Part shown: positions 8,415-32,010 of the stretch, one piece after another
Position numbering within the stretch: the first letter of the stretch is position 1
Layout of the letters: each line of letters opens with the position of its first letter
Assembly: GCA_003225055.1 (NCBI GenBank)
Contig: QIAU01000153.1
Span: 1 to 49,717 of the forward strand
Origin: Acidobacteriota bacterium
GTDB lineage: Bacteria > Acidobacteriota > Terriglobia > Terriglobales > Acidobacteriaceae
Reading direction: 5' to 3'
Length of the DNA stretch: 49,717 nt
The notes under the pieces: generated by a model
Told to the model about the DNA's origin: nothing
Database searches by the model: none
Seen by the model: only the letters and a program-made list of their open reading frames with translations
Program-made: the position numbers and the translations under genes

Positions 8415-10580
8415 ATGGCATCCAATAAGATCGACTTCCCACTAGGTGTAAGTCATGCCCACCCGGCGGCTGCACGCGGTGCGATCCTGTCAGCTACGCC
8501 GAACTGGTTGCAGGCCGTAGCCATTATTCGAAAACACTGGCGAGTGTCCCGAGCTTTCGCTGCCGTAGTGTTACTCACAGTCATTACCGGCACTCTTCTC
8601 ATGAAACCGGTTTATGAGCCCACGGCGCGACTGGAGATAGACCCTCCGGGAGCCGAGTTTTTCACCACGGAGAATACTGCCTCTGACAGTGGGAATCAGG
8701 AGTACCTGGATACGGAGGCAAAGAACCTGGAGAGCGATGAACTGGCACTATCCGTGATCAAGGCGCTTCACCTTGATAAGAAGGCAGGCCTGCCGTCCCA
8801 AGCGGCGGCGCAGGAAGATCAAACCCATATTGATGGCAATACCACAAGCGGCCTAACAGCGGAAGAGAACGCTGCGCTGCGCGCGTTTCACAAATCGTTT
8901 AAGGTCAGGCGTGACAGTACCAGCCGGATTATCACGGTGAGCTTCGCCAGTCATGATCCCAGGCTATCAGCAACGGTCGTCAACACCGCATTGCAGATGT
9001 TCGTCGACTCGACCTACCAGCACCGGCATGACTCTATCGTTAAATCGTCGGCATGGCTCGGCACACAACTTGAAGATATACGCAAGAAACTTGACGAGTC
9101 CAACCGGGCTCTAGCCGCCTTTCAACAAAAGACCGGGATTACAGATATTGACGAAAGTAAGAGTACGTTTTCGGAAAGGATGGCCGAGTTGAGCCGTCAG
9201 CAGAGTCAGGCCGAGGCTGATCGAGTCCAGTTGCGAGCCGAGCTGAGTAACGTACACGGCAAACACCTCGATGCTCTGACGGAAGTTCATACTAATCCGG
9301 TCATACAGGATCTGGAGAAGAAACTGGCTGAAGCCAAGGCAGAACTCAAAAAGACAAAGGTGATCTATGGCGAGAGCCATCCCAATGTAAAGAAGTTGCG
9401 CAGCGAGGCTGACGAGCTTCAGGCCCAGTTGAACGACCAACGCGCGTCTATTCTGCTGATGTTGAAGTCCAATTACAACGCGGCCGGATCCCGCGAGCAA
9501 GCGCTCAACGCGGAGATGAAAGCAGCCAGGAACAAGCTGAACCAGATGGCGCAGTACAGCCAGCTCAAGAAAGAAGTGCAGACCAACGCGGGGCTCTATA
9601 ACGATCTCTATAAAAAAGTGAAAGAGTCGGCGATCGCTGCCGGCGCGAAGTTAAGTGATATGCAGATTGTGGATCATGCCCGCGTGCTGGATCGTCCTAC
9701 GCGTCCCAACATCCCATTGGATTTAGCGCTCGGTTTGTTGACGGCCTCGGCCGGGGGTATCATGCTCGCGTTTGTCTGCGAGGCATTTGATCGAAGACTC
9801 TACACCGTTCAAGACGTGCAGAAACTGGTGGGAAGCTCTGCCGTTTCTCTTGTCCCAGCACTGGGCGCCGGCGTGCATGGACCCGAGCGCAAGTTTCTGG
9901 GCATGTTGCAATCCGCGAAGGTGCCGGACAAATTCCTGCAGAAGCGGCCGCGGTCCCCCGAATCGGAAGCGCTGCGCGCGCTGCACACCGCGATCATGCT
10001 TTCGCGGCGAGAGGACGACGTCCAAATCGTAGCGATAGCATCTTCGTTTGCCCGGGAGGGGAAAACTACTGTCGCAGTGAACCTGGCGATTGCCCTCGCG
10101 CAGTATGGGCCAACCTGCCTGATCGATGCCGATTTGCGACGGCCGCAGGTTGCTAAGGCGTTTCAAGTGCCTCGCGAACCTGGATTGGGCGAACTTCTCA
10201 GCAACCATGTGCCTTTGGAGGAAGCGCTTCATCCCGTTTCGGACATAGAGAATCTCAAGGTGCTGCCGGCAGGAGCTGAGGTGCAAGACACGGCAGCCGC
10301 GATTTGTTCTGACCGAATGCGGGACGTTTTGCGGGAACTGCGGGGCCATTTTCACTTTGTTGTCATGGATTGCCCACCCATTTTGCCCTATGCCGATGGC
10401 CGCGTACTCTCGACCCTGGCTGATGGGATTATTTTCGTATGCCGCTCGGGAGTCACTACCAGCGAAGCTCTGCTACATAGTCAGGATATTCTGAAAAAAC
10501 TCGAGGCTGCTCCGGTTTTGGAGGTGGTCCTCAACGGAGCCTCACTCGACGCGAAGGGATATAACTACGCTTACGAGTAA
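8415..10580 (+). CDS. Wzc-like chain-length regulator fused to a bacterial tyrosine kinase
   Basis: A 721-residue polysaccharide co-polymerase. A membrane helix at about 47-66 is followed by the Wzz domain (KPVYEPTARLEIDPPG), a long periplasmic coiled coil (about 190-420) and a second helix near 440-460. The cytoplasmic kinase has Walker A in SSFAREGKTT (about 544-553), Walker A' in CLIDADLRRP (about 568-577) and Walker B in VVMDCPP (about 649). The C-terminus ends GYNYAYE, so only two tyrosines are available for autophosphorylation, far fewer than in E. coli Wzc. It would control chain length and export together with the Wza-like protein at the operon end. The ribosome site before ATG 8415 is weak. 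Confidence 0.93.
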   Translation: MASNKIDFPLGVSHAHPAAARGAILSATPNWLQAVAIIRKHWRVSRAFAAVVLLTVITGTLLMKPVYEPTARLEIDPPGAEFFTTENTASDSGNQEYLDTEAKNLESDELALSVIKALHLDKKAGLPSQAAAQEDQTHIDGNTTSGLTAEENAALRAFHKSFKVRRDSTSRIITVSFASHDPRLSATVVNTALQMFVDSTYQHRHDSIVKSSAWLGTQLEDIRKKLDESNRALAAFQQKTGITDIDESKSTFSERMAELSRQQSQAEADRVQLRAELSNVHGKHLDALTEVHTNPVIQDLEKKLAEAKAELKKTKVIYGESHPNVKKLRSEADELQAQLNDQRASILLMLKSNYNAAGSREQALNAEMKAARNKLNQMAQYSQLKKEVQTNAGLYNDLYKKVKESAIAAGAKLSDMQIVDHARVLDRPTRPNIPLDLALGLLTASAGGIMLAFVCEAFDRRLYTVQDVQKLVGSSAVSLVPALGAGVHGPERKFLGMLQSAKVPDKFLQKRPRSPESEALRALHTAIMLSRREDDVQIVAIASSFAREGKTTVAVNLAIALAQYGPTCLIDADLRRPQVAKAFQVPREPGLGELLSNHVPLEEALHPVSDIENLKVLPAGAEVQDTAAAICSDRMRDVLRELRGHFHFVVMDCPPILPYADGRVLSTLADGIIFVCRSGVTTSEALLHSQDILKKLEAAPVLEVVLNGASLDAKGYNYAYE

Positions 10581-10592
10581 TCAGCACACGTG

Positions 10593-11360
10593 ATGCAGAC
10601 AGCCAAAACTCGAACCCCGATGCGAGTTGTGAGTCCCGGGCTGGGAACCACAGAAGCCGATAAGTCAGTGCATTGTGCAATCAGTCCATGGTGCAGGTCA
10701 TCCATCAAGCGGGCATTTGATGTGGTTCTCGCGTCCCTGATGGCGTTGCTGGTACTGCCTCTCATCCCGCTGATTGCCATTGCTGTGAAACTCAGCTCTC
10801 CAGGGCCGGTTTTTTTCCGGCAACGCCGGGTCGGCCTAGACGGCCGGGAATTCGAGGTCTTGAAATTCCGCACCATGATCCAGAACTCGCGCGGCGGGCT
10901 CGGCATCACGTCGAGCGTCGATCGCAGAATTACCCGCGCAGGACAGTTCCTGCGAAAATCAAAGCTAGACGAGTTACCTCAGCTTTTCTGTGTGCTCTCC
11001 GGTCAGATGAGTCTGGTGGGCCCCCGGCCGGACTTGCCGCAGTACTTTGCTTCACTGGATAAGAAGTATCACGAGGTTCTTCGTTTGCGCCCCGGCCTCA
11101 CGGGGAGAGCCTCGGTTCGGTTCCGCAACGAAGAGGAAATACTCTCCCGAGTGCCGCCTGACGAACTGGAATCGTTCTACGTCTCGACCATCTTCCCACG
11201 GAAAATTCAGCTGGAAATGGAATACGCTGAGACCGCAAACTTGTGGCAGGACCTAGTCATCCTGTTCCAAACGTTCTTCAAGTTGTTCTCAACCGAAACC
11301 GAAAGATTTGAGCAGCTCCAGCAGGACCAGCCCTCACCGGAAGCCGGTTCCATCGTCTAA
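10593..11360 (+). CDS. initiating sugar-phosphate transferase (undecaprenyl-phosphate, WbaP/WcaJ C-terminal type)
   Basis: About 255 residues. A single membrane helix (about 35-60) precedes the conserved sugar transferase domain: KRAFDVVLA, SSPGPVFFRQRRVG, FEVLKFRTM, then KLDELPQLFCVLSGQMSLVGPRP and a PGLTG motif. Members of this family transfer a sugar-1-phosphate from a UDP-sugar to undecaprenyl phosphate, the first membrane step of repeat-unit assembly. It is the short form without the N-terminal multi-helix domain. GTG 10590 directly before the ATG is an alternative start. The gene begins 12 bases after the kinase gene. Confidence 0.93.
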   Translation: MQTAKTRTPMRVVSPGLGTTEADKSVHCAISPWCRSSIKRAFDVVLASLMALLVLPLIPLIAIAVKLSSPGPVFFRQRRVGLDGREFEVLKFRTMIQNSRGGLGITSSVDRRITRAGQFLRKSKLDELPQLFCVLSGQMSLVGPRPDLPQYFASLDKKYHEVLRLRPGLTGRASVRFRNEEEILSRVPPDELESFYVSTIFPRKIQLEMEYAETANLWQDLVILFQTFFKLFSTETERFEQLQQDQPSPEAGSIV

Positions 11361-11418: not shown

Positions 11419-12816
11419 GTGCATATTAGCGCCTATCGAGCCTGGAATCGAGAAAGCACTTACAAGCCGCTGCTCCTGTTGATAGCAGCGGCAGTAGGCG
11501 CGTTAGTCGTTCGCCAAAGTTGGGTTTACATGGGGGCGCTTTTTGGACTATGCCTGGTGATCGTCTGGCCTGTTCTTGCGAGTCTGGGTGTTTTCGCTCT
11601 GCTGGTTCCCTTCGATTCCATTCTAGTGCTTGGCCACAGCGACGGTGGGACCACTTTGACGTTCGTGGTGGGCGGCCTGGCAATTGCTGTCCTGCTGGCA
11701 ACTGGCATCGGATTTCAGCGCTTTGTGATGCCACCTAAGGCGGCTCTCTGGTGGACGCTGTTCGTCTTCTGGGCGTCGGCCTCGGCGCTCTGGGCTTACG
11801 ATCAATCCCCCGTGGTTCAGCGGCTTCCCACGATGTTCAGCTTGTTCATTTTGTACATCGTTGCCAGCTCCTACCGTCTGCAGGGAACCGAGTTCTCGGG
11901 GCTGGTGACGATGACGATCCTCGGGGGATTCCTGGCCGCGCTGGTTGCTTTCCACCAGTTTTATCAGGGCCCCGTCGTTCAGGATACAAGAGGGTCCCTG
12001 ATCGTCGGGAATCGAGAAACCGATCCCAATATTTTCGCGGCGAGTTTGTTACTTCCGCTATCGCTGGCGGTAGGAGAATTTCTGGCTGCCCGGGCCTTGT
12101 TTCGCAGGATGTTAATGCTGCTCGCCGCGGGCGCCATTGCGCTCGGCGTATTCGTAACGATGTCCCGAGGCGCTCTTCTTGCCCTGACGACTATGGTGAT
12201 CGTTTATCTTGTGAAATTCCGAATGAACTGGCGTGTCTTTGTGCCGGTCGTCGTCTTGGGTGTCGCGTTGCTGTTTTCGCCGAAGCTCCTGCTCCAGCGG
12301 GTGGAGAAGACGGAAGCTACAGGTGGCGCCGGGCGAGTCTACATCTGGCAAGCGGGAATAGCTGCCTTCAAGGACCACGCCTTGGTGGGTGCCGGACTAG
12401 ACAATTTCCCTCTGATTTACGACGAGTATGCGGGCGCAGCGCGAAAGTTCGTTGGCCTCCACCGCGATCCTCACAACATATACCTTCAGACGGGAGTCGA
12501 GCTTGGCGTCATCGGCCTGACCCTGCTGATTCTCGCGATTACATGGCAGCTTCGCCTACCGAATCTGTCGGGAATCGAAAGTAAGAGAAGTCCAACGGAA
12601 CTTCACGTGACAGCGTGCCAAGCGGCGGCGTGGGGAATGTTGACCGCGAGTTTCTTCCTGGGAATGCTATGGTTCAAAGCCTTCTGGCTGGTGTGGATCA
12701 TGCTTACACTGGCTTGTCGGGAGAGCATGGCGGATTCGGCAACTTCTACCTTACAAATAGCTTCGCGACATTCGATCGCGGAACAGTCTCAGGCTCGTCC
12801 TGTCGAATTTCCGTAA
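11419..12816 (+). CDS. O-antigen polymerase/ligase-family membrane protein (Wzy candidate)
   Basis: A 465-residue integral membrane protein with about ten to twelve hydrophobic segments. The Wzy/WaaL-family region around residues 195-370 includes ETDPNIFAASLLLPL, a helix with TMSRGALLAL, and the periplasmic-loop motifs GRVYIWQAGIAAF and HNIYLQTGVELG. In this operon it is most likely the polymerase that joins lipid-linked repeat units, since a flippase and a Wzz-type regulator are also present. A ligase role cannot be excluded by sequence. The start is GTG 11419. Confidence 0.88.
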   Translation: MHISAYRAWNRESTYKPLLLLIAAAVGALVVRQSWVYMGALFGLCLVIVWPVLASLGVFALLVPFDSILVLGHSDGGTTLTFVVGGLAIAVLLATGIGFQRFVMPPKAALWWTLFVFWASASALWAYDQSPVVQRLPTMFSLFILYIVASSYRLQGTEFSGLVTMTILGGFLAALVAFHQFYQGPVVQDTRGSLIVGNRETDPNIFAASLLLPLSLAVGEFLAARALFRRMLMLLAAGAIALGVFVTMSRGALLALTTMVIVYLVKFRMNWRVFVPVVVLGVALLFSPKLLLQRVEKTEATGGAGRVYIWQAGIAAFKDHALVGAGLDNFPLIYDEYAGAARKFVGLHRDPHNIYLQTGVELGVIGLTLLILAITWQLRLPNLSGIESKRSPTELHVTACQAAAWGMLTASFFLGMLWFKAFWLVWIMLTLACRESMADSATSTLQIASRHSIAEQSQARPVEFP

Positions 12817-17659: not shown

Positions 17660-19189
17660 ATGGAAGATAGCCCTGTGGCAATTGGAGAAGCTCTCAAACC
17701 GGTAAGCGACCCCGCTCCCACGACTCCATCGCGTGTGCCCGAAGATCACCTGCACACGATGGCGAAGGCCTTCGCCTGGAGCGGTACGGGCATGTGGTCC
17801 ACCCAGCTTTTTACCTGGCTGGCCACATTCACCGTTGCCCGCCTGCTGGCACCGTCGGATTACGGCCTGATCGGGATAGCCCAGATTTTTGTGGGACTGG
17901 TGATGGAGGTAAACGACCATGGGCTCGGATTGACAGTGGTCAATCTGCAGGATTTGACCGAGCGCCAGATCGGTCAACTCAACACGCTATCAGTCCTGTT
18001 TGGCGCCACGGCGTTCTGCCTGTCGTGCCTGGTCGCCCGTCCGCTCGGCGTGTTTTTCCGGATGCCGCATTTGCCGCTGCTGATTATCGCCCTGAGCGTA
18101 ACCTTCTTGATCAGGGCGATGAAGACCATTCCTGCGGCGCTTCTGCAACGGAATATACAATTCAGGGCGTTGGCGGGAATTGAGGCTGCCTCCTATTTCA
18201 CCTATGCAGCTAGTACGCTGCTAACAGCTTTTCTCGGGTTTGGCTACTGGAGCCTTGTCACTGGACTCGTGGCGCTGTCTTTATGTTCGGCGACGATGAC
18301 TTTGCGCCAACGTCGTCACTGTTTTGCGTGGCCTGACATGCGCTCGCTCCGTTATCCGCTAAAGTTCACCGGGCATATGCTGGTGAGCGGACTTTCCTGG
18401 TATGTGTATGCGAATTCGGACCTCCTGGTGGCTGGGCGCGTACTGGGACAATCGGCGGTAGGCACATACACGTTTGCTGTGACCCTGGCCAGTGCGCCGG
18501 CAGACAAGATCACGGGCTTGATTCAGCGGGTTGTGCCTTCGTTCTTTGCGGCCGCCCATGAAGAAAAACCGATCCTGCGTTCCTATTTACTGACCCTGTC
18601 GGAGATCGTATTCGTATTTCTCTTGCCGGCGACCCTGGGGTTGGCGATTGTTGCCGACCAGTTCATTACGGTTGCCCTCGGGCCAAAGTGGCTTCCGGCA
18701 GTTACTCCGCTCCGCATTTTGCTCATGTACGCCACCGCCAAGGCGCTGACTAACACCCTCTCGCCCATGCTGAATGCGAAACGGCAGTCGCATTACACAA
18801 TGTGGACCAACGTGGCGGCTGCGGTCTATTTTCCGATTGGATTTTTCATCGGCGCCCGTTGGGGAACTGCGGGAATCGCTGCCACCTGGGTTGCGCTCTA
18901 CCCGTTTCTGGCAGTTCCGCTTTTCTGGCGCACATTCAGGGAAATTGAGTTGCACTGGACCGAATATGCGCGGGCGCTCTGGCCTGCGTTCAGCTGCTGC
19001 ATTCTCATGGCATTGGCCGTCATCCTGCTTGGCATGAGCTTGCCCGCAGCGTGGCCGCAGCCTGCACGGCTGGTTCTCGAGATCGCAGTCGGAGCGGCCA
19101 CGTATTCGTCATGCATGCTGGTGCTTCATCGTAGAGAGCTACGCAGGCTATATCGAATTATTCGTCCCGGAGAGCCTGTATGCGCGTGA
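17660..19189 (+). CDS. polysaccharide repeat-unit flippase (Wzx / MOP superfamily)
   Basis: A 509-residue membrane protein with about 12 to 14 hydrophobic helices. The N-terminal part has WSTQLFTWLATFTVARLLAP, followed by DYGLIGIAQIFVGL, the typical start of oligosaccharide flippases. A central loop with YPLKFTGHMLVSGLSWY and the second half (about 290-490) complete the family architecture. It should move lipid-linked repeat units across the inner membrane for polymerisation by the O-antigen polymerase. It starts 15 bases after the GT2 gene. Confidence 0.92.
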   Translation: MEDSPVAIGEALKPVSDPAPTTPSRVPEDHLHTMAKAFAWSGTGMWSTQLFTWLATFTVARLLAPSDYGLIGIAQIFVGLVMEVNDHGLGLTVVNLQDLTERQIGQLNTLSVLFGATAFCLSCLVARPLGVFFRMPHLPLLIIALSVTFLIRAMKTIPAALLQRNIQFRALAGIEAASYFTYAASTLLTAFLGFGYWSLVTGLVALSLCSATMTLRQRRHCFAWPDMRSLRYPLKFTGHMLVSGLSWYVYANSDLLVAGRVLGQSAVGTYTFAVTLASAPADKITGLIQRVVPSFFAAAHEEKPILRSYLLTLSEIVFVFLLPATLGLAIVADQFITVALGPKWLPAVTPLRILLMYATAKALTNTLSPMLNAKRQSHYTMWTNVAAAVYFPIGFFIGARWGTAGIAATWVALYPFLAVPLFWRTFREIELHWTEYARALWPAFSCCILMALAVILLGMSLPAAWPQPARLVLEIAVGAATYSSCMLVLHRRELRRLYRIIRPGEPVCA

Positions 19190-19202: not shown

Positions 19203-20315
19203 TTGCCGGGATCAAAATTTTCAAGGCGCGTCCACCCGCAGATTCCTTTACTGATGCTGATGCGTTCCGGAATTGTTCTAGTCCTCTGCGTAGCCGCGGT
19301 GGTCGTATTCACTACTTCCAGACGGACGGCCAAACATGTTGATGCGCCAAAATCCGTTCCCGTTCGTGAGCCCGGGCAGGAGCACGCTCGCGTTCGGCGT
19401 ATTAACCGCTATGTTTCTCCCGAAGGCAATGACGGTGCCGATGGGTCCAAGGCGCATCCCTGGAGAACGCTTCAGAAAGCGGCTGACCTGGTCGGACCGG
19501 GCGTTACGGTGCATGTTGCCCCGGGAGTGTATGTCAGCGACGAAGATCTGAAGACCACGGTCAGTGGCACGCGCACAGCCATGATTCGCTATGTGTCCGA
19601 CGTTAATGGCCAAGCACTCCTCCGCTGCACAAAAAGCGGGAACTCAGCCGTGTGGTGGAACCAGGGCGACTACGTGGAGATCGAGGGCTTTGACATCTCA
19701 GGAAGTGGCGCTTTGGGGATTTACAACCAGGGCTCTCACACTCGACTAATTAGCAACACGATTCATGACATTCCTGCGCCGGGCTGCCCGCACGACGGGG
19801 GAGCCGGAATCGATAACGGGAATTATGCCGGTTCCGACGACGATGTTATAGGCAACACCGTCTACGACATTGGAGATTGGCAGGTAGCGTGTCCGCGCGT
19901 TCACGGCATCTATCACTCCAACCGGGGAGGGCACATCGAGAACAACGTCGTGTTTCGAAATCAGGGTTGGGGCGTTCACCTGTGGCATGCAGCCAGCAAC
20001 GTGACCATAAGCGGCAATCGGGTGGCGGATAACGGATATGGCGGCATACTGATCGGCTCTGTGGCCTCCGACTTCCCGGCCGGAGCGGGGGCTAACGATC
20101 AGACGATAGTGTCCGACAACCTGGTCGTCCACAACGGCATTGCATCCGGCGCAGCCGGATACGGAATCGAAGAATACGGAGACGTGGGCACAGACAATCG
20201 CTACGAAAACAACATAGTCCGCATGAACCGACCCGGCGATTGGAATCTCAAAGAGACAGATCTCGCCGCCCGCATTTTGAAAATGGTTGGCGTACGCTCC
20301 GACCGGGAACAATGA
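19203..20315 (+). CDS. membrane-anchored right-handed parallel beta-helix protein
   Basis: Up to 370 residues from TTG 19203; ATG 19254 or 19260 would give a shorter form beginning at the membrane segment (about residues 18-37, GIVLVLCVAAVVVF). After a basic linker comes a DUF1565/NosD-like start (YVSPEGNDGADGSKAHPW). Repeated beta-helix coils follow (GDYVEIEGFDISGSG, NTIHDIPAPGCPHDGG, NNVVFRNQGWGVHLWHA). Such folds occur in polysaccharide lyases, epimerases and hydrolases. A close paralogue lies at 23433-24704 on the opposite strand. Position between flippase and export genes suggests periplasmic modification or trimming of the polymer. The catalytic residues cannot be named. Confidence 0.88.
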   Translation: MPGSKFSRRVHPQIPLLMLMRSGIVLVLCVAAVVVFTTSRRTAKHVDAPKSVPVREPGQEHARVRRINRYVSPEGNDGADGSKAHPWRTLQKAADLVGPGVTVHVAPGVYVSDEDLKTTVSGTRTAMIRYVSDVNGQALLRCTKSGNSAVWWNQGDYVEIEGFDISGSGALGIYNQGSHTRLISNTIHDIPAPGCPHDGGAGIDNGNYAGSDDDVIGNTVYDIGDWQVACPRVHGIYHSNRGGHIENNVVFRNQGWGVHLWHAASNVTISGNRVADNGYGGILIGSVASDFPAGAGANDQTIVSDNLVVHNGIASGAAGYGIEEYGDVGTDNRYENNIVRMNRPGDWNLKETDLAARILKMVGVRSDREQ

Positions 20316-20395
20316 CTTTTGCGGATATGCCAGCCTAGGTCTACTTGTAACAACTTCTAACATGGACTTGCGTCCGCTCACATAAGGTTGCAAGC

Positions 20396-22174
20396 ATGCA
20401 GTCAATTATACCCAGAGACGTTCTGCAGCGTCTAGAACGGACAGAACGGACGGTGTGTGTAGTCGACGCGAGCCGGTCCCCGCAACTAGATCCTGCGCAT
20501 CAGGCTAGTAGGCGGCTGCGAGTGGGCGTACTTGTGAGTGTGGGCAAGCTTCCCGCGTGGATGCTCACCGTGCTTGAGCGCATAAACGAGTCTCCCTCGC
20601 TTGAACTTGTCTTGATCAGAGTTGAAAGCGAGCGGGCCCGACAGACATCGGCGAGTTGGCGTTACTTTATTCTTAATCTTTGGAAGAGGTTCGATTCCAT
20701 CAGCTTTGCAAAGGAGAATACTGCGCTCAGGTTGGCCGATACCCCACACGAACTAAATCACGTGAACACCTTGCATATTGCGCCGGGATTACTGAGCGAC
20801 ACCGACCTGGAACGGCTCAAGGCCGCCCAACTCGACGTCATCCTAAGCCTGGATCAGGATGATCTCATTCCTCGACTCCTGGATACGGCTGAGCATGGCG
20901 TTTGGTCATTGTGTGATGGACACGAGAATGCGACGGCAGAGAACGCGTTGTGGGACATAGTGGAGAGACGGGATGTTTCTCCTGCCGCCATCGTGCGGCA
21001 CACTCGAACCGGCAGCGAAGTTGTCTATCATTCAGTTTTTGCTTGCGACCCCAGATCCCTGGCGCGGCATCGCAACCGAGTCTGTTCGCGCTGGCCAACA
21101 TTCGTCCACCAGGCATTACTCAACTATTCCTCGGCAACTCCTAAGCAAGTTCGTGGCGTCAAGTCCGTCGCTCCCGAGATGGCGGTGCAACGCGGCCTGC
21201 CCGGGAATCTCCAGATGCTGACCTTCCTGGTCTGCCAGTTTGGAGACGGCTTGCTGCGAAAGATCCGGAGAAGCGTGTTTCAAGAACAGTGGTTAATCGG
21301 TATTCGGCACAGACGCACGGGCAACGACGCTTTCCGACTGGGTGCATTCAATCTTATCAGTGCTCCTCCGGGGCACTTCTACGCGGATCCCTTCGTTTTC
21401 GAGACTGAGGGTGAACAATATCTCTTCTTTGAAGACTACGTGCGGGGCCAAAGTAAGGGCGTCATCGCGTGCATTCAGATCGATGACTCGGGATTCGTGG
21501 GAGAACCGAAAGTAGTTCTCGAAACGGACTACCACTTGTCTAATCCCACAATTTTCCGATGGGAAGGGCAGAGCTATATGCTTCCCGAAACCCGCGACAG
21601 TGGCCGGATCTCGCTGTTTCGCGCGGTGGATTTTCCGTGGCGCTGGGAGTTTGACAGGGTTCTGATTGACTCCGTGTGGGCGGTGGATCCCACTTTGTTT
21701 GAGCATGCCGGCAAGTTTTGGATGTTTGCGGGAGGAGTCGAAAGGAACGGCCTCATCGATGGTGAGTTGTTTTTATTCTTCTCAGATTCGCCCTTTGGAC
21801 CCTGGGTGGGCCACCCGCGTAATCCGGTCGTTGCCGATGCCAGGCGGGCGCGACCAGCCGGCCAGGTCTTTACGCTCCAAGGACAGCTGGTCCGGCCGGG
21901 TCAGGACTGCGCGCGAAGATATGGTCGCGCGGTGGTACTAAACCGGATCGAGGTGTTGTCCGAGACGCAATACCGCGAATCGCCCTTTCTTACCCTGGGA
22001 TCTGATTGGTTTCCGGGCAACATCGGGACCCATGTCTTGAATCAGTCTGCCAACTATCAAGTGGTGGACGGGCGATTTTACTCCCCCAAATACTCAGCCG
22101 GTGGCTCGTTCGTCTGTTTTTGGAATCGCATTTTACCTTCTTCATCTTGCTTTAAGGTCCCGCGGAGGGCATAA
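20396..22174 (+). CDS. formyltransferase-like domain fused to a GINT1-N/beta-propeller-like domain
   Basis: A 592-residue protein; ATG 20396 follows AAGG at eight bases. Residues about 40-240 resemble the Rossmann-like N-terminal domain of sugar and methionyl-tRNA formyltransferases (LRVGVLVSVGKLPAWML, LDVILSLDQDDLIPRLLD, HGVWSLCDG), but the usual Asn-His-Asp catalytic set is not clearly present. Residues about 295-590 resemble the N-terminal domain of plant GlcN-inositolphosphorylceramide transferase, with propeller-like repeats FYADPFVFETEGEQYLFFED, NPTIFRWEGQSYMLPET and DPTLFEHAGKFWMFAGG, then an ARPAGQ segment. It could modify an amino sugar in the repeat unit. The domain calls are by pattern; the activity is unknown. 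Confidence 0.78.
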   Translation: MQSIIPRDVLQRLERTERTVCVVDASRSPQLDPAHQASRRLRVGVLVSVGKLPAWMLTVLERINESPSLELVLIRVESERARQTSASWRYFILNLWKRFDSISFAKENTALRLADTPHELNHVNTLHIAPGLLSDTDLERLKAAQLDVILSLDQDDLIPRLLDTAEHGVWSLCDGHENATAENALWDIVERRDVSPAAIVRHTRTGSEVVYHSVFACDPRSLARHRNRVCSRWPTFVHQALLNYSSATPKQVRGVKSVAPEMAVQRGLPGNLQMLTFLVCQFGDGLLRKIRRSVFQEQWLIGIRHRRTGNDAFRLGAFNLISAPPGHFYADPFVFETEGEQYLFFEDYVRGQSKGVIACIQIDDSGFVGEPKVVLETDYHLSNPTIFRWEGQSYMLPETRDSGRISLFRAVDFPWRWEFDRVLIDSVWAVDPTLFEHAGKFWMFAGGVERNGLIDGELFLFFSDSPFGPWVGHPRNPVVADARRARPAGQVFTLQGQLVRPGQDCARRYGRAVVLNRIEVLSETQYRESPFLTLGSDWFPGNIGTHVLNQSANYQVVDGRFYSPKYSAGGSFVCFWNRILPSSSCFKVPRRA

Positions 22175-22179
22175 AGTTT

Positions 22180-23184
22180 ATGTTGTCAAATGTCCGGACG
22201 TTTGGCGTGCTGGTGAGCTTTCTTCTCCTATCTCTTCTGCTGCCCGTATGCAGCCAGAAAATAGGGGCCACGCAGTCGACAGTCACTCCTCAGGCTACAC
22301 CGGTTCAAAACGCACCGGCCCAGAACACACCTGTCCAGAACACATCTGCGCAGGGGAAGCCAGCTGCCACTCAAGATTTGCTGATCGGTGGCGGTGATCT
22401 CCTGGAGGTCACAGTCGAGGGCGCTTCTGACTACGACAAGGAAGTTCGAGTAAATCACGATGGTGAAATTTACCTTCCGCTCATCGGTGCGGTTAAGGCG
22501 GCAGGTCTGTCGATCACGCAGGCGCAGGCTCTCATCGCAAAACGGCTCAAAGAGGGAAATTTCTTTACCGATCCTCAAGTCACTGTCTTTGCGAGAGAAT
22601 ATGCGACGCAGGGGATTTCAGTGCTGGGGGAAGTGCAGAAGCCGGGCATCTATCCCCTGCTTGGCTCGCACAAGTTGTTCGACGTAATTTCTGCCGCGGG
22701 CGGAACCACTCCGAAAGCCGGCAATACGGTAATGATCGCGCGCCGGGAACATCCCGCCCAGGTTGAAACGGTGCAGCTGCCTCGCGATAACAAGGATTGG
22801 ATCCTCAGCAACGTCGCTGCGCAGCCTGGTGACACCGTTATGGTCTCCAAAGCCGGAATTGTCTATGTGGTAGGAGACGTGCGCCAACCCGGCGGCTTTG
22901 TCATGGAGAACTCGCAGATGACAGTCTTGCAGGCTATTGCCATGGCTCAAGGCGCCAATCCTACTGCTTCCTTGCAACACGCCAAGCTCATCCGAAAGAC
23001 GGCTTCAGGCCCGCAGGAAACACCCGTTGCTCTGAACCGCATCTTGGCGGCAAAGGCCTCTGATTTTAATCTCCAAGCTGAAGATATTCTGTTCGTGCCG
23101 AGCAGCAAGGCCAAGGCCGGGGCTCGCAAAGGCCTAGACGCAATCCTGCAGACCGCAGCAATGCTTGCGGTCTATCATCCATGA
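22180..23184 (+). CDS. polysaccharide export outer-membrane protein (Wza-like)
   Basis: A 334-residue exported protein. The signal peptide covers about residues 1-24, with a Cys in LLLPVCSQ that is only a marginal lipobox. A low-complexity linker of Gln, Asn, Thr, Pro and Ala (about 38-62) follows. The poly-export domain starts near 67 (GGGDLLEVTVEGA), with GEIYLPLIGAVKAAGLS and TDPQVTVFAREY. Two SLBB-type segments follow (SVLGEVQKPGIYPLLGSHK and VYVVGDVRQPGGFVME). Wza-type proteins form the outer-membrane exit pore for capsule and exopolysaccharide and act with the Wzc-like kinase. It is the last gene of the operon and starts five bases after the preceding stop. Confidence 0.93.
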   Translation: MLSNVRTFGVLVSFLLLSLLLPVCSQKIGATQSTVTPQATPVQNAPAQNTPVQNTSAQGKPAATQDLLIGGGDLLEVTVEGASDYDKEVRVNHDGEIYLPLIGAVKAAGLSITQAQALIAKRLKEGNFFTDPQVTVFAREYATQGISVLGEVQKPGIYPLLGSHKLFDVISAAGGTTPKAGNTVMIARREHPAQVETVQLPRDNKDWILSNVAAQPGDTVMVSKAGIVYVVGDVRQPGGFVMENSQMTVLQAIAMAQGANPTASLQHAKLIRKTASGPQETPVALNRILAAKASDFNLQAEDILFVPSSKAKAGARKGLDAILQTAAMLAVYHP

Positions 23185-23361
23185 GTGGCCTCCCGACCCG
23201 TCCCCGATAGGGTCCATTCCCTGCACTTCTAGCTTCCTGCCATAGTGCGTCACGCACTCTTCGCCGGTCCTACTTGCACCCGTCCGTAAAGCCATCTTCC
23301 GGTGGTCAGGCAGGGATGATTCGGCTCCGCCGGAAGTCCGTCTATTCCCCGCTCGCCTCTG

Positions 23362-23398
23362 CAAAAATAAAAACGCCAGGAGACATGCTCCTGGCGTT
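23362..23398 (-). terminator. Rho-independent terminator of the beta-helix lipoprotein gene
   Basis: Read on the minus strand, an 11-pair perfect stem (AACGCCAGGAG with CTCCTGGCGTT, loop CATGT) is followed by TTTTTATTTTT. It lies 35 bases past the stop of the gene at 23433-24704. In the plus direction no U-run follows the stem, so it is not an obvious terminator for the exopolysaccharide operon that converges from the other side. Confidence 0.85.
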
Positions 23399-23432
23399 CG
23401 GCTGGTGTGCCGATTGATGCCTGGAAATTGAA

Positions 23433-24704
23433 CTACGGCTCGGGGTAGGAGCCTACAGTGCTGCCGTATTGATAGGCACCACGACTCCAGGTGCCGTTGA
23501 TCGGACGTGGACCGCGATCATGATCATCCGACGGCGCTGCCGTGCTGGTTCCGCTGGTTGCAGCCGGACTGACGGATTGCAAACGGTAATTGCCGCGGCC
23601 GTCGCCTGTGTACCACTTGAACGAAGGCGCGGAGGTGATAGTGCCGGTGTGTGTATTGGCGATCAGACTCCAGTTAACCGGCCCGTTCTTGTAAACCAGG
23701 TTGTTCAGATATTTAATGTGCGAGCCAACGTCTCCATACTCTTCGATGCCGTTTCCCTGGCCACCCGAGACCAAGCCGTTACGGAAGACGATGTTGTTGC
23801 TGATAGTGCTGTAGTCCTGGACACCGGAGCCGCTGGGGAAGTCGCTGGATTGCGCCCCGATCAGAATTCCGCCGTAGGCGTTGTTGAACACGCTGTTGTT
23901 AGCGATCACGATCTGGTTTGCCGCATGCCAGGTGTGAATGCCCCATCCTTGGTTACGGAAGACAACATTGTTTGTGACGTGGCCTCGCTGGTTGGCATGA
24001 TAGATGCCATGCACGCGTGAACATGGCGAGTTGTAGTCGCCGATGTCGTGAACCCAATTGCCGATGATGTCGTCATCGGAGGCTGAGTAGTTGCCGTCGT
24101 GGATGCCCGCGCCGCCGTCGTTGGGGCAGCCGGGAGCAGGGATGTTATGCACGTGATTCCCGATGATCCGAGTGGACGAGCCTTCGTTGTAGATGCCCAG
24201 GTCGCCGACTCCCGTGATATCGAATCCTTGAATCTCCACGTAATCCCCCTGGTTCCACCAGGTCGCGGAATTGCCCATTTGAGTAGAAGTGAGCTTAGCG
24301 CCCCATCTTTGATCGGAAACCCACCGGATAGGGGCAGCGGCGGTTCCGCTGGCAGTGGTCAGCAGTCGCGCGCCACTTTCGTTGTCGCTGGGATAAGTGC
24401 CGGGGACCACGTGGATAGTAGTGCCGGGTTTGGCGGCTGAATTCGCCCGGCTGAGGCTAAGCCAGGGATGTGCTGACGAACCATCATTCGTGTCACTGCC
24501 GGAAGGGGAAACGTAAACTTGAGGTCCGAGGATGGTGCTGGTCGACCAGTTAATGCCCGCTTGTGGGCTGGCCCCTGCAGGGCTTGAGCCTGCCGGGCTG
24601 GGGGCCGCTGGACTGGGGGCTGCCGGGCTGGAATCAACCGAGCACCCAACAGCAATTATCGTTACCAACGCGAGCAAAAGAACTGGACGTGATTCCTGAA
24701 ACAT
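23433..24704 (-). CDS. lipoprotein with right-handed parallel beta-helix, paralogue of 19203-20315
   Basis: A 423-residue protein; AGGAG lies eight bases before ATG. The N-terminus is a lipoprotein signal with Cys21 in TIIAVGCS, then a PSPA/PAGS low-complexity linker (about 26-47). The remainder has the same beta-helix sequence as the operon gene: YVSPSGSDTNDGSSAHPW, GDYVEIQGFDITGVG, HNIPAPGCPNDGG, NNVVFRNQGWGIHTWHA, GNGIEEYGDVGS. By eye about two thirds of positions agree over about 250 residues. It extends further at the C-terminus (about 360-423, with RPINGTWSRGAYQYG). Predicted location is a membrane, probably the outer one. The role is probably polysaccharide binding or cleavage, inferred from fold and neighbours. 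Confidence 0.88.
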   Translation of the reverse strand: MFQESRPVLLLALVTIIAVGCSVDSSPAAPSPAAPSPAGSSPAGASPQAGINWSTSTILGPQVYVSPSGSDTNDGSSAHPWLSLSRANSAAKPGTTIHVVPGTYPSDNESGARLLTTASGTAAAPIRWVSDQRWGAKLTSTQMGNSATWWNQGDYVEIQGFDITGVGDLGIYNEGSSTRIIGNHVHNIPAPGCPNDGGAGIHDGNYSASDDDIIGNWVHDIGDYNSPCSRVHGIYHANQRGHVTNNVVFRNQGWGIHTWHAANQIVIANNSVFNNAYGGILIGAQSSDFPSGSGVQDYSTISNNIVFRNGLVSGGQGNGIEEYGDVGSHIKYLNNLVYKNGPVNWSLIANTHTGTITSAPSFKWYTGDGRGNYRLQSVSPAATSGTSTAAPSDDHDRGPRPINGTWSRGAYQYGSTVGSYPEP

Positions 24705-25036
24705 GGGGAGACTCCTGGAAAGGTTGCTTAGGGTTACCTCACCGTAGCAGCCGCGTTCTTTGCCTGCAATCCGTCAACTATCCTAAGTAGATTTAGGTTC
24801 TTTAACTTATGGGTATGCCGTTCCCCTTAGTGGAAACTAAGCGGTTCGCCCTAATTTCGCCTTCGAGGGCGGTCCTGATGTCTGAATATTGATGTGAATG
24901 GCGCAGCCGATTTCTGGCAGCGTGGGTCAGAGGAGGGCCGCGAGCCGAGGAATTTTTTCGGGCGCGAAAAGTCGGGAGTGACGGCTTCCGGCGGTTACGT
25001 TTTCGTTTGCAATAGGAGATTGGAAGATAGGAAACA
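24705..25036 (-). promoter_or_regulatory. long leader with possible structured RNA upstream of the beta-helix lipoprotein gene
   Basis: No gene is seen in these about 330 bases. On the minus strand, AGGGCGAACC (24843-24852) is followed by a hairpin CTTAGT-TTCC-ACTAAG (24826-24841) and GGGAACGGC, and much later by GGTAACCC. TTAGGG (24849-24854) can pair with CCCTAA (24728-24733) to close the whole element. The order loosely recalls a cyclic di-GMP-I (GEMM) aptamer, but the loop is not GNRA and the conserved GCAAAGC segment is not intact. This is a weak structural suggestion only. Confidence 0.2.
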
Positions 25037-25938
25037 TCACCGATGCGAATATTGTCGAGCACGATCCCGCCGTAGTGGGATGTACCATTGGCCAGTCAAT
25101 CGCTTCGCAGCCTGGTTGAGGAACCAGACAGTGGCCTGCTGCCAACGCGACCGCTTGCTTCCCACTGTGATGGCTCCCACCTCAGAGAGTGGCGTGGAGC
25201 AACGCACCGAGTAACGTCCCGACACAAGGCAGCCATCCACGACCTCCTCGCTCACGGTGGGTTGAGACGTGAACAGGACCCTGATGCCCGCGGCGGCGGC
25301 CTAGCCGACTTTCTGCGAATAGAAGCCACCGGAAACCGAAGCCGCTGTTATCGGCGCCCCGATTGCATCGCTGAGTAGCGCGCAACTTTCCCGCCATTCC
25401 CAGAGAAGCTCGTCCCAGCTAAGACTGGACATCTGCTCCGGGTGAGTGCAGGAATGACCGATCAGGCGACCACGTTGGTGCAGCTCGCGGATCTGTGAGC
25501 GACCGAGGTAGCCGGGGTGGCCGATCAAATTGGTAAACACGAAGAAGTGGCCGCGCCAGCCGACCTTCTCCAGTTCCGCCGCCACGCAATTAAGCTGCTG
25601 ACCCTGCCATCGTCGACGGTCAGAAAAACAGCGCAGTGCTCGGTCTGCGCAACCTGGTCAACCTTGGCGACAGCCTGCGCCCCCGCGCGCAATCGAATGG
25701 TCGTCAAGTGCTCCAGGGAAACTTCCTCGCTCCGGCGTGTAGACTGTCCCATGCCCGGGAGCCAACGGCGCCAACCGCGCTTTGTCAACCCCATCATGGA
25801 ATCCAATGGAGACCCACATCGTCGATACAGATCAGGAAGGTACCGATTACGGTAAATGGTCCCCTCCTGCTCCAGGGCAGAAACATGCAGCGTGAGGCAA
25901 CAGCTAGAGATGTTGAGCCAGCCTGCCGTCAGAATCAA
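25037..25938 (-). pseudogene. polysaccharide deacetylase (NodB family), frameshifted and with an amber stop
   Basis: The minus frame from 25938 reaches the NodB motif as CAVFLTVDDG. Near 25600 homology passes to another frame that supplies KVGWRGHFFVFTNLIGHPG, RLIGHSCTHPEQM (the HSxTHP zinc motif) and SVSGGFYSQKVG. A TAG at 25301-25303 stops this frame. Homology continues in the same frame beyond it with AAAAGIRVLFTSQPTV and VDGCLVSGRYSV, to a stop at 25037. NodB-type enzymes remove N- or O-acetyl groups from polysaccharides, so an intact ancestor could have served the neighbouring exopolysaccharide. Both a frameshift and a nonsense codon make it non-functional unless the sequence is wrong. 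Confidence 0.8.
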
Positions 25939-26125
25939 TTAATACAGTGGAAAATGCAGTACGGCGGGCCATCGTTCCGGGATGGCGGTTCAACAGGAAA
26001 GGACGATTGCGGGAGAAGGGCAGTAAGGAGAGGCCACGGATGGATTCGGATTGACAGACTGCAAGCTGGCGTGTGCGGCAGGCGTCCGCATTCCGTCACT
26101 CCGAGTCAATCCGCGGCCTGTATGA

Positions 26126-30383: not shown

Positions 30384-30477
30384 CCGAATCTCGCAGGCGT
30401 ATCCTGAAACCGAAGTAGCTGGCCGCGAATCTAGTGGGTGAGCTATGCAAGTTGATTTGGCAAAAGGAGAGCCGGGC

Positions 30478-32010
30478 ATGTTTCCTGCGGAGTACAGGAA
30501 GAAGGTCTCAAGGGGTTGGAGGCGGCTCGCCTGCGCTGTGCTCGTTTTATTCTCGCCTCTGTGGTTGACCTCTCCAGCAAATGCCCAAGCCCCGGAGAAT
30601 GAGCCGAGTATCTCCTCGGCTCAAGCGAAGCCGATCCGGATTGGTTCTCTCATACTTGATGCGGAGTTGCTCGGTCGGGGCCAGGGCTGGAGTTGGTTTG
30701 TCGGAGATTCGCGGGCGCGCTACGGGTTCGGCAATTCCCTCTTCCGAGTTGGCCTTTCCCAGCAAAAGAACAAATTCGGTTGGAGAATCGAACTGGCACA
30801 GCCGGCGTTTTACGGTCTTCCCGATGACGCGCTTGTGCCCGGAACAGCTATCCCGCTGGGGCTGGGAGGGGCATACTTCTCAGCCAACGGCAATCGGGAA
30901 AATGTCGCCGGAATTTTCGTGAAGCAGGCGTTCCTTTCCATCCGAGGCATCGATAACAATCACAGCACCCTGCGTCTGGGGCGTTTTGAGTTCTCCGACG
31001 GCGAAGAGAGGGCGCCGAGCGCTCCTGACCTGGCCTGGCTCACGGGTCAACGCGTGGCGCATCGACTCATCGGTGATGCGTACTGGACTGATATCGGACG
31101 CAGTTTCGACGGCGTAGATTTCTCCAGCGATATCGGTGCGGATACCAATCTGACGTTTATGACCGGGCGTGCCACACGCGGCGTCTGGCAGACGGATGGC
31201 ATGGGCGAGATGGATGTCGACATTATCTATAGCGCCTTCACCCGGGAATTTCCGACGCCCCATACCGACTCACAGTTGCGGATTTTTGCTTTTGGCTATC
31301 ACGATGGTCGCAAAGTCCTGAAGGTCGACAGCCGGGCGCTCGCAGCGCGGGAAGCGGACACGCGCAATATCCGGATCGGAACCTTTGGGGTGAACTACGC
31401 CATCGTCACACCCATCTGGCGTCTCGGGAAATGGGATTTGCTGGTTTGGGGCGCACAGCAGATCGGGCAGTGGGGGAGGTTGAGCCATCGCGCTAATTCC
31501 GGGACAGTGGAAATGGGATGGCGGCCGCCGATTCCATGGATCCATCCGTGGTTGCGGGCAGGTGCGTTGTTTGCCAGCGGCGACGGGAATCAGAATGACA
31601 GCACCCACGCCACCTTCTTTCAGCCGCTGCCCACAGAGCAACAATATGCAAGGTTGCCGTTCTACACGCTGCAGAATAGTGAGGACTACACCGGCCAGGT
31701 GATTGTGCGACCGACCGCGAAATGGCAGTTGCGCAGCGAAGTGCACAAGGTCAAGCTGCACTCGGCCAACGATTTGTGGTATCTGGGCACGGGGGCATTC
31801 CAGAACACCAGCTTCGGCTATGACGCGCTCCCTGACAACGGACACCGGGGACTGGGCAACTACGTGGATTTCAGCGTCGATTATCAGGTGACGTCGAAGC
31901 TGGGCCTGCGTTACTACATTGGAGTCCTGTCGGGGAAGGGCGCCGAGACCAAGCTCCCTCATGGCCGGAAAGGCGGGTTCACGTATCTCGAGGTGGCGTA
32001 CCGGTTCTGA
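30478..32010 (+). CDS. alginate-export-family outer-membrane beta barrel
   Basis: A 510-residue exported protein. ATG 30478 is preferred because AGGAG lies eight bases upstream and the signal peptide (about 1-38, KKVSRGWRRLACAVLVLF ending ANAQA) follows at once; ATG 30445 would add eleven residues. The mature protein is rich in alternating aromatic strands (FRVGLSQQKNKFGWRIEL, STLRLGRFEFSDGEE, WLRAGALFASGDGN) and ends with Phe after TYLEVAYR, the usual barrel end. The pattern fits the alginate export family (AlgE-like). Whether it exports an acidic polysaccharide or imports one cannot be decided. It is separated from the exopolysaccharide operon by about 7 kb. Confidence 0.85.
   Translation: MFPAEYRKKVSRGWRRLACAVLVLFSPLWLTSPANAQAPENEPSISSAQAKPIRIGSLILDAELLGRGQGWSWFVGDSRARYGFGNSLFRVGLSQQKNKFGWRIELAQPAFYGLPDDALVPGTAIPLGLGGAYFSANGNRENVAGIFVKQAFLSIRGIDNNHSTLRLGRFEFSDGEERAPSAPDLAWLTGQRVAHRLIGDAYWTDIGRSFDGVDFSSDIGADTNLTFMTGRATRGVWQTDGMGEMDVDIIYSAFTREFPTPHTDSQLRIFAFGYHDGRKVLKVDSRALAAREADTRNIRIGTFGVNYAIVTPIWRLGKWDLLVWGAQQIGQWGRLSHRANSGTVEMGWRPPIPWIHPWLRAGALFASGDGNQNDSTHATFFQPLPTEQQYARLPFYTLQNSEDYTGQVIVRPTAKWQLRSEVHKVKLHSANDLWYLGTGAFQNTSFGYDALPDNGHRGLGNYVDFSVDYQVTSKLGLRYYIGVLSGKGAETKLPHGRKGGFTYLEVAYRF

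Follow-up and report, generated by a model that had tools for sequence, protein, structure and literature searches.

A recurrent pair of differently anchored beta-helix proteins linked to exopolysaccharide loci in Acidobacteriaceae

Introduction

Why would an exopolysaccharide (EPS) locus carry two closely related parallel beta-helix proteins that differ in their anchors? The question is raised by a contig of an Acidobacteriota bacterium of the family Acidobacteriaceae (QIAU01000153.1, assembly GCA_003225055.1), analysed here over 49,717 nucleotides (the window). One beta-helix gene (BH1) lies within a run of EPS genes, and the other (BH2) faces the run from the opposite strand. An earlier reading of this DNA (the original prediction) took the two proteins for a two-compartment polysaccharide lyase, epimerase or binding module. 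In this study, we find that the pair is real and recurrent, though patchily distributed in the family, that it is linked to EPS genes, and that its anchor difference recurs. We consider it slightly better than an even chance that BH1 and BH2 are a matched carbohydrate-active pair working on the EPS of their own gene run, one in the periplasm and one at the surface.

Results

Two related proteins with different anchors

The features of the two genes are as follows.

19254-20315, + strand: BH1, a beta-helix protein of 353 amino acids from its ATG, inside the EPS run, without a C-terminal cap
19266-19319, + strand: N-terminal hydrophobic segment of BH1 (membrane anchor or uncleaved signal), without a lipobox
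19410-20249, + strand: beta-helix domain of BH1
23371-23399, - strand: intrinsic-terminator-like site of BH2, a 12-pair stem followed by TTATTTTT
23433-24704, - strand: BH2, a beta-helix protein of 423 amino acids opposing the EPS run, with a lipobox
23436-23669, - strand: C-terminal region of BH2 (residues 346-423), of low model confidence and lacking in BH1 as well as in the Tolsyn relative described below
23670-24521, - strand: beta-helix domain of BH2 (residues 62-345), modelled mostly with confidence
24534-24641, - strand: Pro/Ala/Ser-rich linker of BH2 (residues 22-57), of low model confidence
24642-24653, - strand: lipobox AVGC of BH2, with Cys21

BH1 and BH2 align over 284 amino acids with 60% identity (350 bits), and the alignment score of 951 compares with at most 78 in 200 shuffles. 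Both match Pfam Beta_helix (PF13229; 44.2 bits for BH1 and 29.1 bits for BH2, cut-off 25.9) and DUF1565 (PF07602; 35.1 and 26.4 bits, cut-off 20.3). The four near-identical motifs quoted in the original prediction are all present in the two open reading frames (ORFs), the fourth being GNGIEEYGDVG in BH2 and GYGIEEYGDVG in BH1. The predicted difference in anchors is also borne out. The BH1 ORF runs from TTG 19203, but ATG 19254 is the more plausible start. In BH1, an N-terminal hydrophobic segment, GIVLVLCVAAVVVF, is present and a lipobox is not. In BH2, the lipobox IAVGC/S is followed by a Ser-Pro-Ala-rich stretch, and a regular-expression rule for bacterial lipoproteins predicts BH2 to be one (MFQESRPVLLLALVTIIAVGC/S following a short hydrophobic signal). 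The C-terminal ~75 residues of BH2 have no counterpart in BH1, whose stop codon is only 80 nt from the next gene, and the Tolsyn relative is shortened in the same manner.

The two genes are 69, 76 and 40% identical at codon positions 1, 2 and 3, and their longest exact DNA run is 14 nt, which rules out DNA repeats able to flip the intervening genes. By these comparisons the pair is old, and its age together with the two intact frames points to selective maintenance of both proteins. The 7.4 Mb genome yielded no further copy, and a viral sequence collection no relative.

Recurrence in the family

With BH2 alone as the query, matches were obtained in 16 of 100 relatives at E <= 0.001, and at 1e-20 in 3 of 396 phylum genomes and 16 of 398 family genomes (own genome counted throughout). 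A 17-row profile at E <= 1e-45 identified 17 positive genomes in the sample of 398 family genomes, with at most five first-look candidates scored per genome and distant helices missed. At least two copies are present in 16 of these 17, and in 14 two of them share a contig and lie no more than 10 kb apart (the window, G024, G035, G041, G250, G504, G505, G517, G545, G568, G585, G637, G687, and G721). The paralogues are therefore linked in most genomes that have them, contrary to the unlinked distribution that the original prediction had set against itself.

The positive genomes without a linked pair are G698, with copies on two contigs, G739, and G528. The last is by its coordinates the same genome as G100 and as the closest named relative, Acidobacteria isolate Tolsyn, and has one copy adjoining wzc-wzx-wzy and a double-helix ORF elsewhere. 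The Tolsyn locus (L043) encodes wzc, wzx, wzy, a short BH1-like protein 64% identical to BH1, and after it a nucleotide sugar dehydrogenase.

EPS linkage, orientation and the lipobox

Genes for Bac_transf or Poly_export proteins, or for homologues of Wzc, Wzy, GINT1 or Wza of the window, were counted as EPS markers. Of the 14 linked pairs, 13 have at least one such marker no more than 15 kb away; the fourteenth, G585, is on a 3.3 kb contig. The two copies are on opposite strands in 13 of the 14 pairs, and 12 linked pairs could be oriented against EPS genes; for G041, whose wza runs the opposite way, the DegT and sugar transferase genes served as the reference. An opposite-strand pair has one co-oriented and one counter-oriented copy by definition, and the test is which of them carries the lipobox. 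It is present in 8 of the 11 readable counter-oriented copies and in 0 of 12 co-oriented copies (Fisher p = 0.0003); the N-terminus of the G504 counter copy reads N and was unreadable. The loci are related, so that the figure by genus is fairer: 4 of 6 counter-oriented versus 0 of 7 co-oriented (p = 0.02). The rule allowed GTG and TTG starts, as applied to G035 and G250 and to the start reported for G687; the script did not locate the helix start of G250; and G721, read by eye, is included in the totals of 8 of 11 and 0 of 12. Rows outside the counts are G568, G585, G698, G739, G098, Tolsyn, Azospirillum, and all Massilia; among these, G585, G698, and G739 each show a lipobox in one copy.

Co-oriented copies have an N-terminal hydrophobic segment and a helix close to the N-terminus. 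Counter-oriented copies mostly have a spacer ahead of the helix, of 43 residues in the window and of 291-389 residues in G035, G505, G545, G637, and G687; the G041 counter copy has no spacer but a C-terminal extension. The G721 locus, found only in the last family survey, matched an expectation noted before its sequence was read, namely a short co-oriented copy and a long counter-oriented copy with lipobox and spacer, although the survey had already shown its two ORF lengths and opposite strands. Its short copy is on one strand with DegT, wzy, GINT1, wza, and transferase genes, and its long copy is on the opposite strand with the lipobox TVTAC/G and an immunoglobulin (Ig)-like spacer.

In G024 (L032:10017-15986), nonribosomal peptide synthetase modules (AMP-binding, condensation, carrier, and thioesterase) lie between the wzx-like and beta-helix genes with an asparagine synthase upstream of them, which suggests an amino-acid-decorated polymer.

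Fold and groove residues

Most of residues 60-345 of BH2 are modelled with confidence, and the predicted local distance difference test (pLDDT) score is under 50 for residues 9-57. The BH1 model was built without an alignment and, at a mean pLDDT of 33, is unusable except for the N-terminal helix 4-25. The best structural match to the BH2 model is the polysaccharide lyase family 9 (PL9) enzyme Pel9A (1ru4; Z 30.1, root-mean-square deviation (rmsd) 3.1 over 304 residues, 23% identity), so that the modelled BH2 shares the PL9 lyase fold. It is followed by a PL9 rhamnogalacturonan lyase (Z 28.8), the alginate epimerase/lyase 8ja4 (28.4), the alginate lyase 6kfn (28.4), AlgE6 (27.3), and RbmB (Z 24.8, rmsd 2.2, 246 residues, 15% identity). 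Glycosidases, phage tailspikes and an adhesin also match at Z over 23; therefore, the fold alone gives no function. The lyase, epimerase and binding module of the original prediction are each compatible with the model, which singles out none of them. A sequence search with BH2 retrieved only two solved sequences, Pel9A and the rhamnogalacturonan lyase (5olr, 5olq), with E = 5e-4 and 0.0016.

In beta-helix enzymes, the PB1 strands line the substrate groove. With strand families PB1-PB3 assigned manually from the secondary structure of the BH2 model, 30 of 35 PB1 residues are identical in the window pair versus 27 of 51 in PB2 and PB3 together (p = 0.002), and the same tendency is present in G504, G687, and G041. 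The groove-side strands are thus well conserved between the window copies and less so in other pairs. PB1/T1 residues identical in BH1, BH2, and the Tolsyn relative include W149, Y172, H232, Y235, H236, H257, W259, H260, E321, and E322. Across 53 beta-helix family sequences, conservation is 89% for Y235 and 72-75% for E322, W259, and H260; H186 is invariant, but it is on PB3. The conserved PB1/T1 residues permit a catalytic site and do not establish one.

The gene context does not fit NosD. BH1 touches PF05048 in a single 50-residue stretch (25.7 bits, cut-off 23.6), and the scanned neighbours are EPS genes; a nosFY/nosL context is typical of NosD.

Helix matching within loci and spacers

Two ancient orthologous classes, an operon type and a lipoprotein type, were rejected, as the tree needs 7 label changes versus 8.0 with shuffled labels. 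The co-oriented and counter-oriented copies do not form two clades and hence are not two ancient genes. BH1 groups with the Tolsyn copy, and BH2 is the next branch. This tree has 34 rows, 11 of them unlabelled and several shortened N-terminally by the motif rule; a 48-row tree with longer pieces agrees on the window copies.

Scored by their helices, the true co-counter pairs of 11 loci, a set that includes near relatives, are better matched than 100,000 of 100,000 shuffles. Over 8 locus types, the true pairing also outranks every other of the 40,320 possible, and in four samples limited to one locus per genus, one of them with G721, it ranks first among 5,040 each time. This helix matching is a statistical tendency whose signal comes from some loci.

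The spacers of seven counter copies (G024, G504, G505, G517, G545, G637, and G687) are alike at 35-76%, and those of G035 and G250 resemble only each other. In genus g24, the spacers of G024 and G517 are 67% identical and their helices 29%, while the two helices of G517 itself are 53% identical. In each of G517, G505, G545, G637, and G687, the G024 spacer finds its best match in the counter-oriented gene; similar domains also occur elsewhere in these genomes, and in the genome of the window the best match is at an unrelated place (C73). Either homogenisation acts on the helix halves inside each locus or the pair is repeatedly remade, and both would fit a shared, locus-specific substrate.

The EPS gene run of the window

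The + strand run comprises genes for a NusG-like protein, a dehydratase, wzc, a sugar-phosphate transferase, wzy, two family 4 glycosyltransferases (GT4), an aminotransferase, a family 2 glycosyltransferase (GT2), wzx, BH1, a GINT1_N-domain protein, and wza. With wzx, wzy, wzc, wza, and an initiating sugar transferase all present, it is a Wzx/Wzy-dependent EPS locus. The assignments are by Pfam (Polysacc_synt_3, Wzy_C, GNVR/AAA_31, Poly_export, and Bac_transf); the corresponding NCBIfam equivalogs scored below their cut-offs.

8415-10580, + strand: wzc-type protein
10590-11360, + strand: polyprenyl-phosphate sugar transferase
11419-12816, + strand: Wzy_C family protein
17660-19189, + strand: wzx-type flippase, immediately upstream of BH1
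20396-22174, + strand: GINT1_N-domain protein, between BH1 and wza
22180-23184, + strand: wza-type export protein (Poly_export, SLBB), the final gene of the run, convergent with BH2

The placement of the two genes at both ends of the export section holds for wzx to wza, BH1 following wzx and wza preceding BH2; wzc lies upstream, at 8415. A terminator scan gave 6 sites in the region against 5.6 expected, and the site of BH2 has by far the longest stem. As this terminator-like site is on its own strand, BH2 is probably a separate transcription unit.

The GINT1_N domain is named for glucosamine inositolphosphorylceramide transferase, and homologues of this protein recur near several pairs. Between BH2 and a peroxiredoxin-like gene are ~1.4 kb with short ORFs only (24705-26125). 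A Pfam Alginate_exp match (30445-32010) is ~6 kb from BH2 and outside the EPS run.

Copies in other lineages

Linkage to EPS genes also occurs beyond Acidobacteriota, where it is not general, and among the genomes analysed the arrangement with a lipoprotein on the opposite strand was encountered only in the family of the window. An Azospirillum plasmid EPS locus (L028:11697-16713) has two copies on one strand, apparently without signal peptides. A Massilia litorea plasmid has two copies of one beta-helix protein under one accession (L029:8641-9774 and L029:14902-16035), with no EPS gene named nearby. In Massilia sp. H-1 (G108, L091:12188-14165), family members are split into several frames beside EPS markers.

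Discussion

As background to the comparison with known systems, AlgG has the motif DPHD, WcaM belongs to the colanic acid cluster, and ExoK and ExsH have a fold other than the beta-helix. The mannuronan epimerases AlgG and AlgE are beta-helices that match the BH2 model at Z 23-27. AlgG, periplasmic by its PDB title, and periplasmic AlgL act on the polymer during export (PMC5099689), in a system that is synthase-dependent, unlike the Wzx/Wzy system here. WceF of the Pantoea stewartii stewartan cluster is, like BH1 and BH2, a beta-helix protein encoded in a Wzy-dependent EPS cluster; this right-handed parallel beta-helix slowly cleaves its own EPS (PMC7949094). It differs in its twin-arginine translocation signal peptide and its trimeric, tailspike-like form, and the excerpted text mentions no paralogue (PMC7949094), whereas BH1 and BH2 are two copies with predicted membrane and lipid anchors. 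RbmB of Vibrio cholerae (9ozl, 9ozd) is likewise a beta-helix acting on the EPS of a Wzy/Wzx-like system, but is a secreted lyase for which the excerpted text mentions no partner copy (PMC11637428). ExoK and ExsH of Sinorhizobium are two glycanases that cut one EPS, as proposed for our pair, although the excerpted source does not present them as a linked opposite-strand pair (PMC4916376). The original prediction that such a module is not described for Wzx/Wzy systems is thus too broad as worded, given WceF and RbmB. Single beta-helix EPS enzymes were already known, and the recurrent two-copy tendency is unusual; we found no description of a matched, differently anchored beta-helix pair in searches of the open-access PMC literature.

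We propose a mechanism in which the location, common substrate and catalysis of the two proteins are inferred. BH1 would be anchored at the inner membrane and meet the chain in the periplasm, as it grows or leaves, at a stage between Wzx/Wzy/Wzc and Wza. BH2 would travel as a lipoprotein to the outer membrane, where its flexible linker (often Ig-like domains in relatives) would keep it at a distance, and would work on the polymer of BH1 where this is exported or within the capsule. The activity may be slow chain trimming or tailoring, with a lyase or glycosidase likeliest and an epimerase possible. Of the two-compartment paralogues first proposed, the different anchors and the EPS linkage stand, and the compartments reached are predicted from the anchors.

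Several observations weigh against this proposal. The spread is patchy (17 of 398 family genomes), G739 has a single copy, the only same-genus genome listed (G001) is negative at 1e-20 and 1e-45, and a BH2-like partner was not found in the Tolsyn genome, where the contig stops 3 kb downstream of the BH1 relative. G568 has its two copies on the same strand. The lipobox rule is failed by the counter copies of G024, G041, and G517 and also by the G041 co-oriented copy, in which FAGC is present. In a weak phmmer alignment, Q296 of BH2 stands at the position of the catalytic Lys of Pel9A, and H232, G253, W254, and H257 at those of its four Ca-binding Asp; the PB1 tendency is not seen in G505, G517, G545, and G637; and among the EPS genes of the window none was recognised as coding for a uronate-forming dehydrogenase. 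The own partner is the best counter match for just 5 of 11 co-oriented copies (window, G041, G504, G505, and G517), and helix identity within loci is as low as 28% in G035 and G250, 36% in G024, and 38-39% in G545 and G637. The two G721 copies (genus g35) are 61% identical to each other and each nearer the counter copies of G035 and G250 (64-69%), so that single-copy replacement also happens. The short linker of the window is absent among the shared spacers. Across seven Massilia genomes, 5 of 28 copies are within 10 kb of an EPS marker (one in G101, two in one ORF in G104, and two in G105), the broken G108 copies being left out of the count and two further copies lying on a contig of just 3.3 kb, too short to show their context. 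In G098, from another family of the class, an opposite-strand pair is outside any EPS context (L031:4008-11907), with one helix inside a 1404-aa protein with Ig-like (ASH/HYDIN-type) regions.

The rival that survives best, which we nevertheless regard as unlikely, is that both proteins are non-catalytic EPS lectins, BH1 guiding the periplasmic chain and BH2 tethering the finished EPS in the manner of Wzi in group 1 capsules. Across the 53 family sequences, no position on PB1, the putative active face, holds an invariant charged residue, which speaks for this rival and against catalysis; the linker and lipid anchor predicted for BH2 would suit a tether; and there are precedents in the agglutination of WceF with its own polymer (PMC7949094) and in Wzi, an outer-membrane lectin (PMC3791409). 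However, the groove side is well conserved between BH1 and BH2, and the nearest solved folds are mostly enzymes, though the adhesin PfbA is also listed. It is improbable that the two are functionally unrelated duplicates retained by chance in a variable EPS locus: Massilia genomes do have several copies, some in tandem and most away from EPS markers, and helix matching may partly stem from repeated local duplication, but third codon positions are just 40% identical with both frames intact, the distribution is two-or-none, and the anchor asymmetry and opposite strands recur. The least credible rival, that BH2 and perhaps BH1 degrade plant or other microbial polysaccharides and merely lie near EPS genes, draws on the pectate lyase Pel9A as best structural match and on the ABC ATPase (28889) and Alginate_exp (30445) genes 4-6 kb past BH2, and is opposed by the EPS markers near 13 of 14 linked family pairs and by the resemblance of BH2-type copies to co-oriented ones.

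Returning to the matched carbohydrate-active pair, we suggest tentatively, with appreciably less than even confidence, a dual-compartment form of EPS processing in which a polymer-specific helix is present twice, in a membrane-held operon copy and in a counter-transcribed, spacer-bearing lipoprotein. When the polymer changes, replacement or homogenisation would tend to affect both helices at once and leave the lipoprotein anchor and spacer in place. If this is true, the helix type would be a readout of the EPS type.

The recurring two-or-none, differently anchored pair, with helices that tend to be alike inside a locus, suggests that one polymer has to be recognised on both sides of its passage across the outer membrane. 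The pair supplies candidate polymer-specific enzymes or lectins and a testable handle on EPS length setting and attachment in Acidobacteriota.

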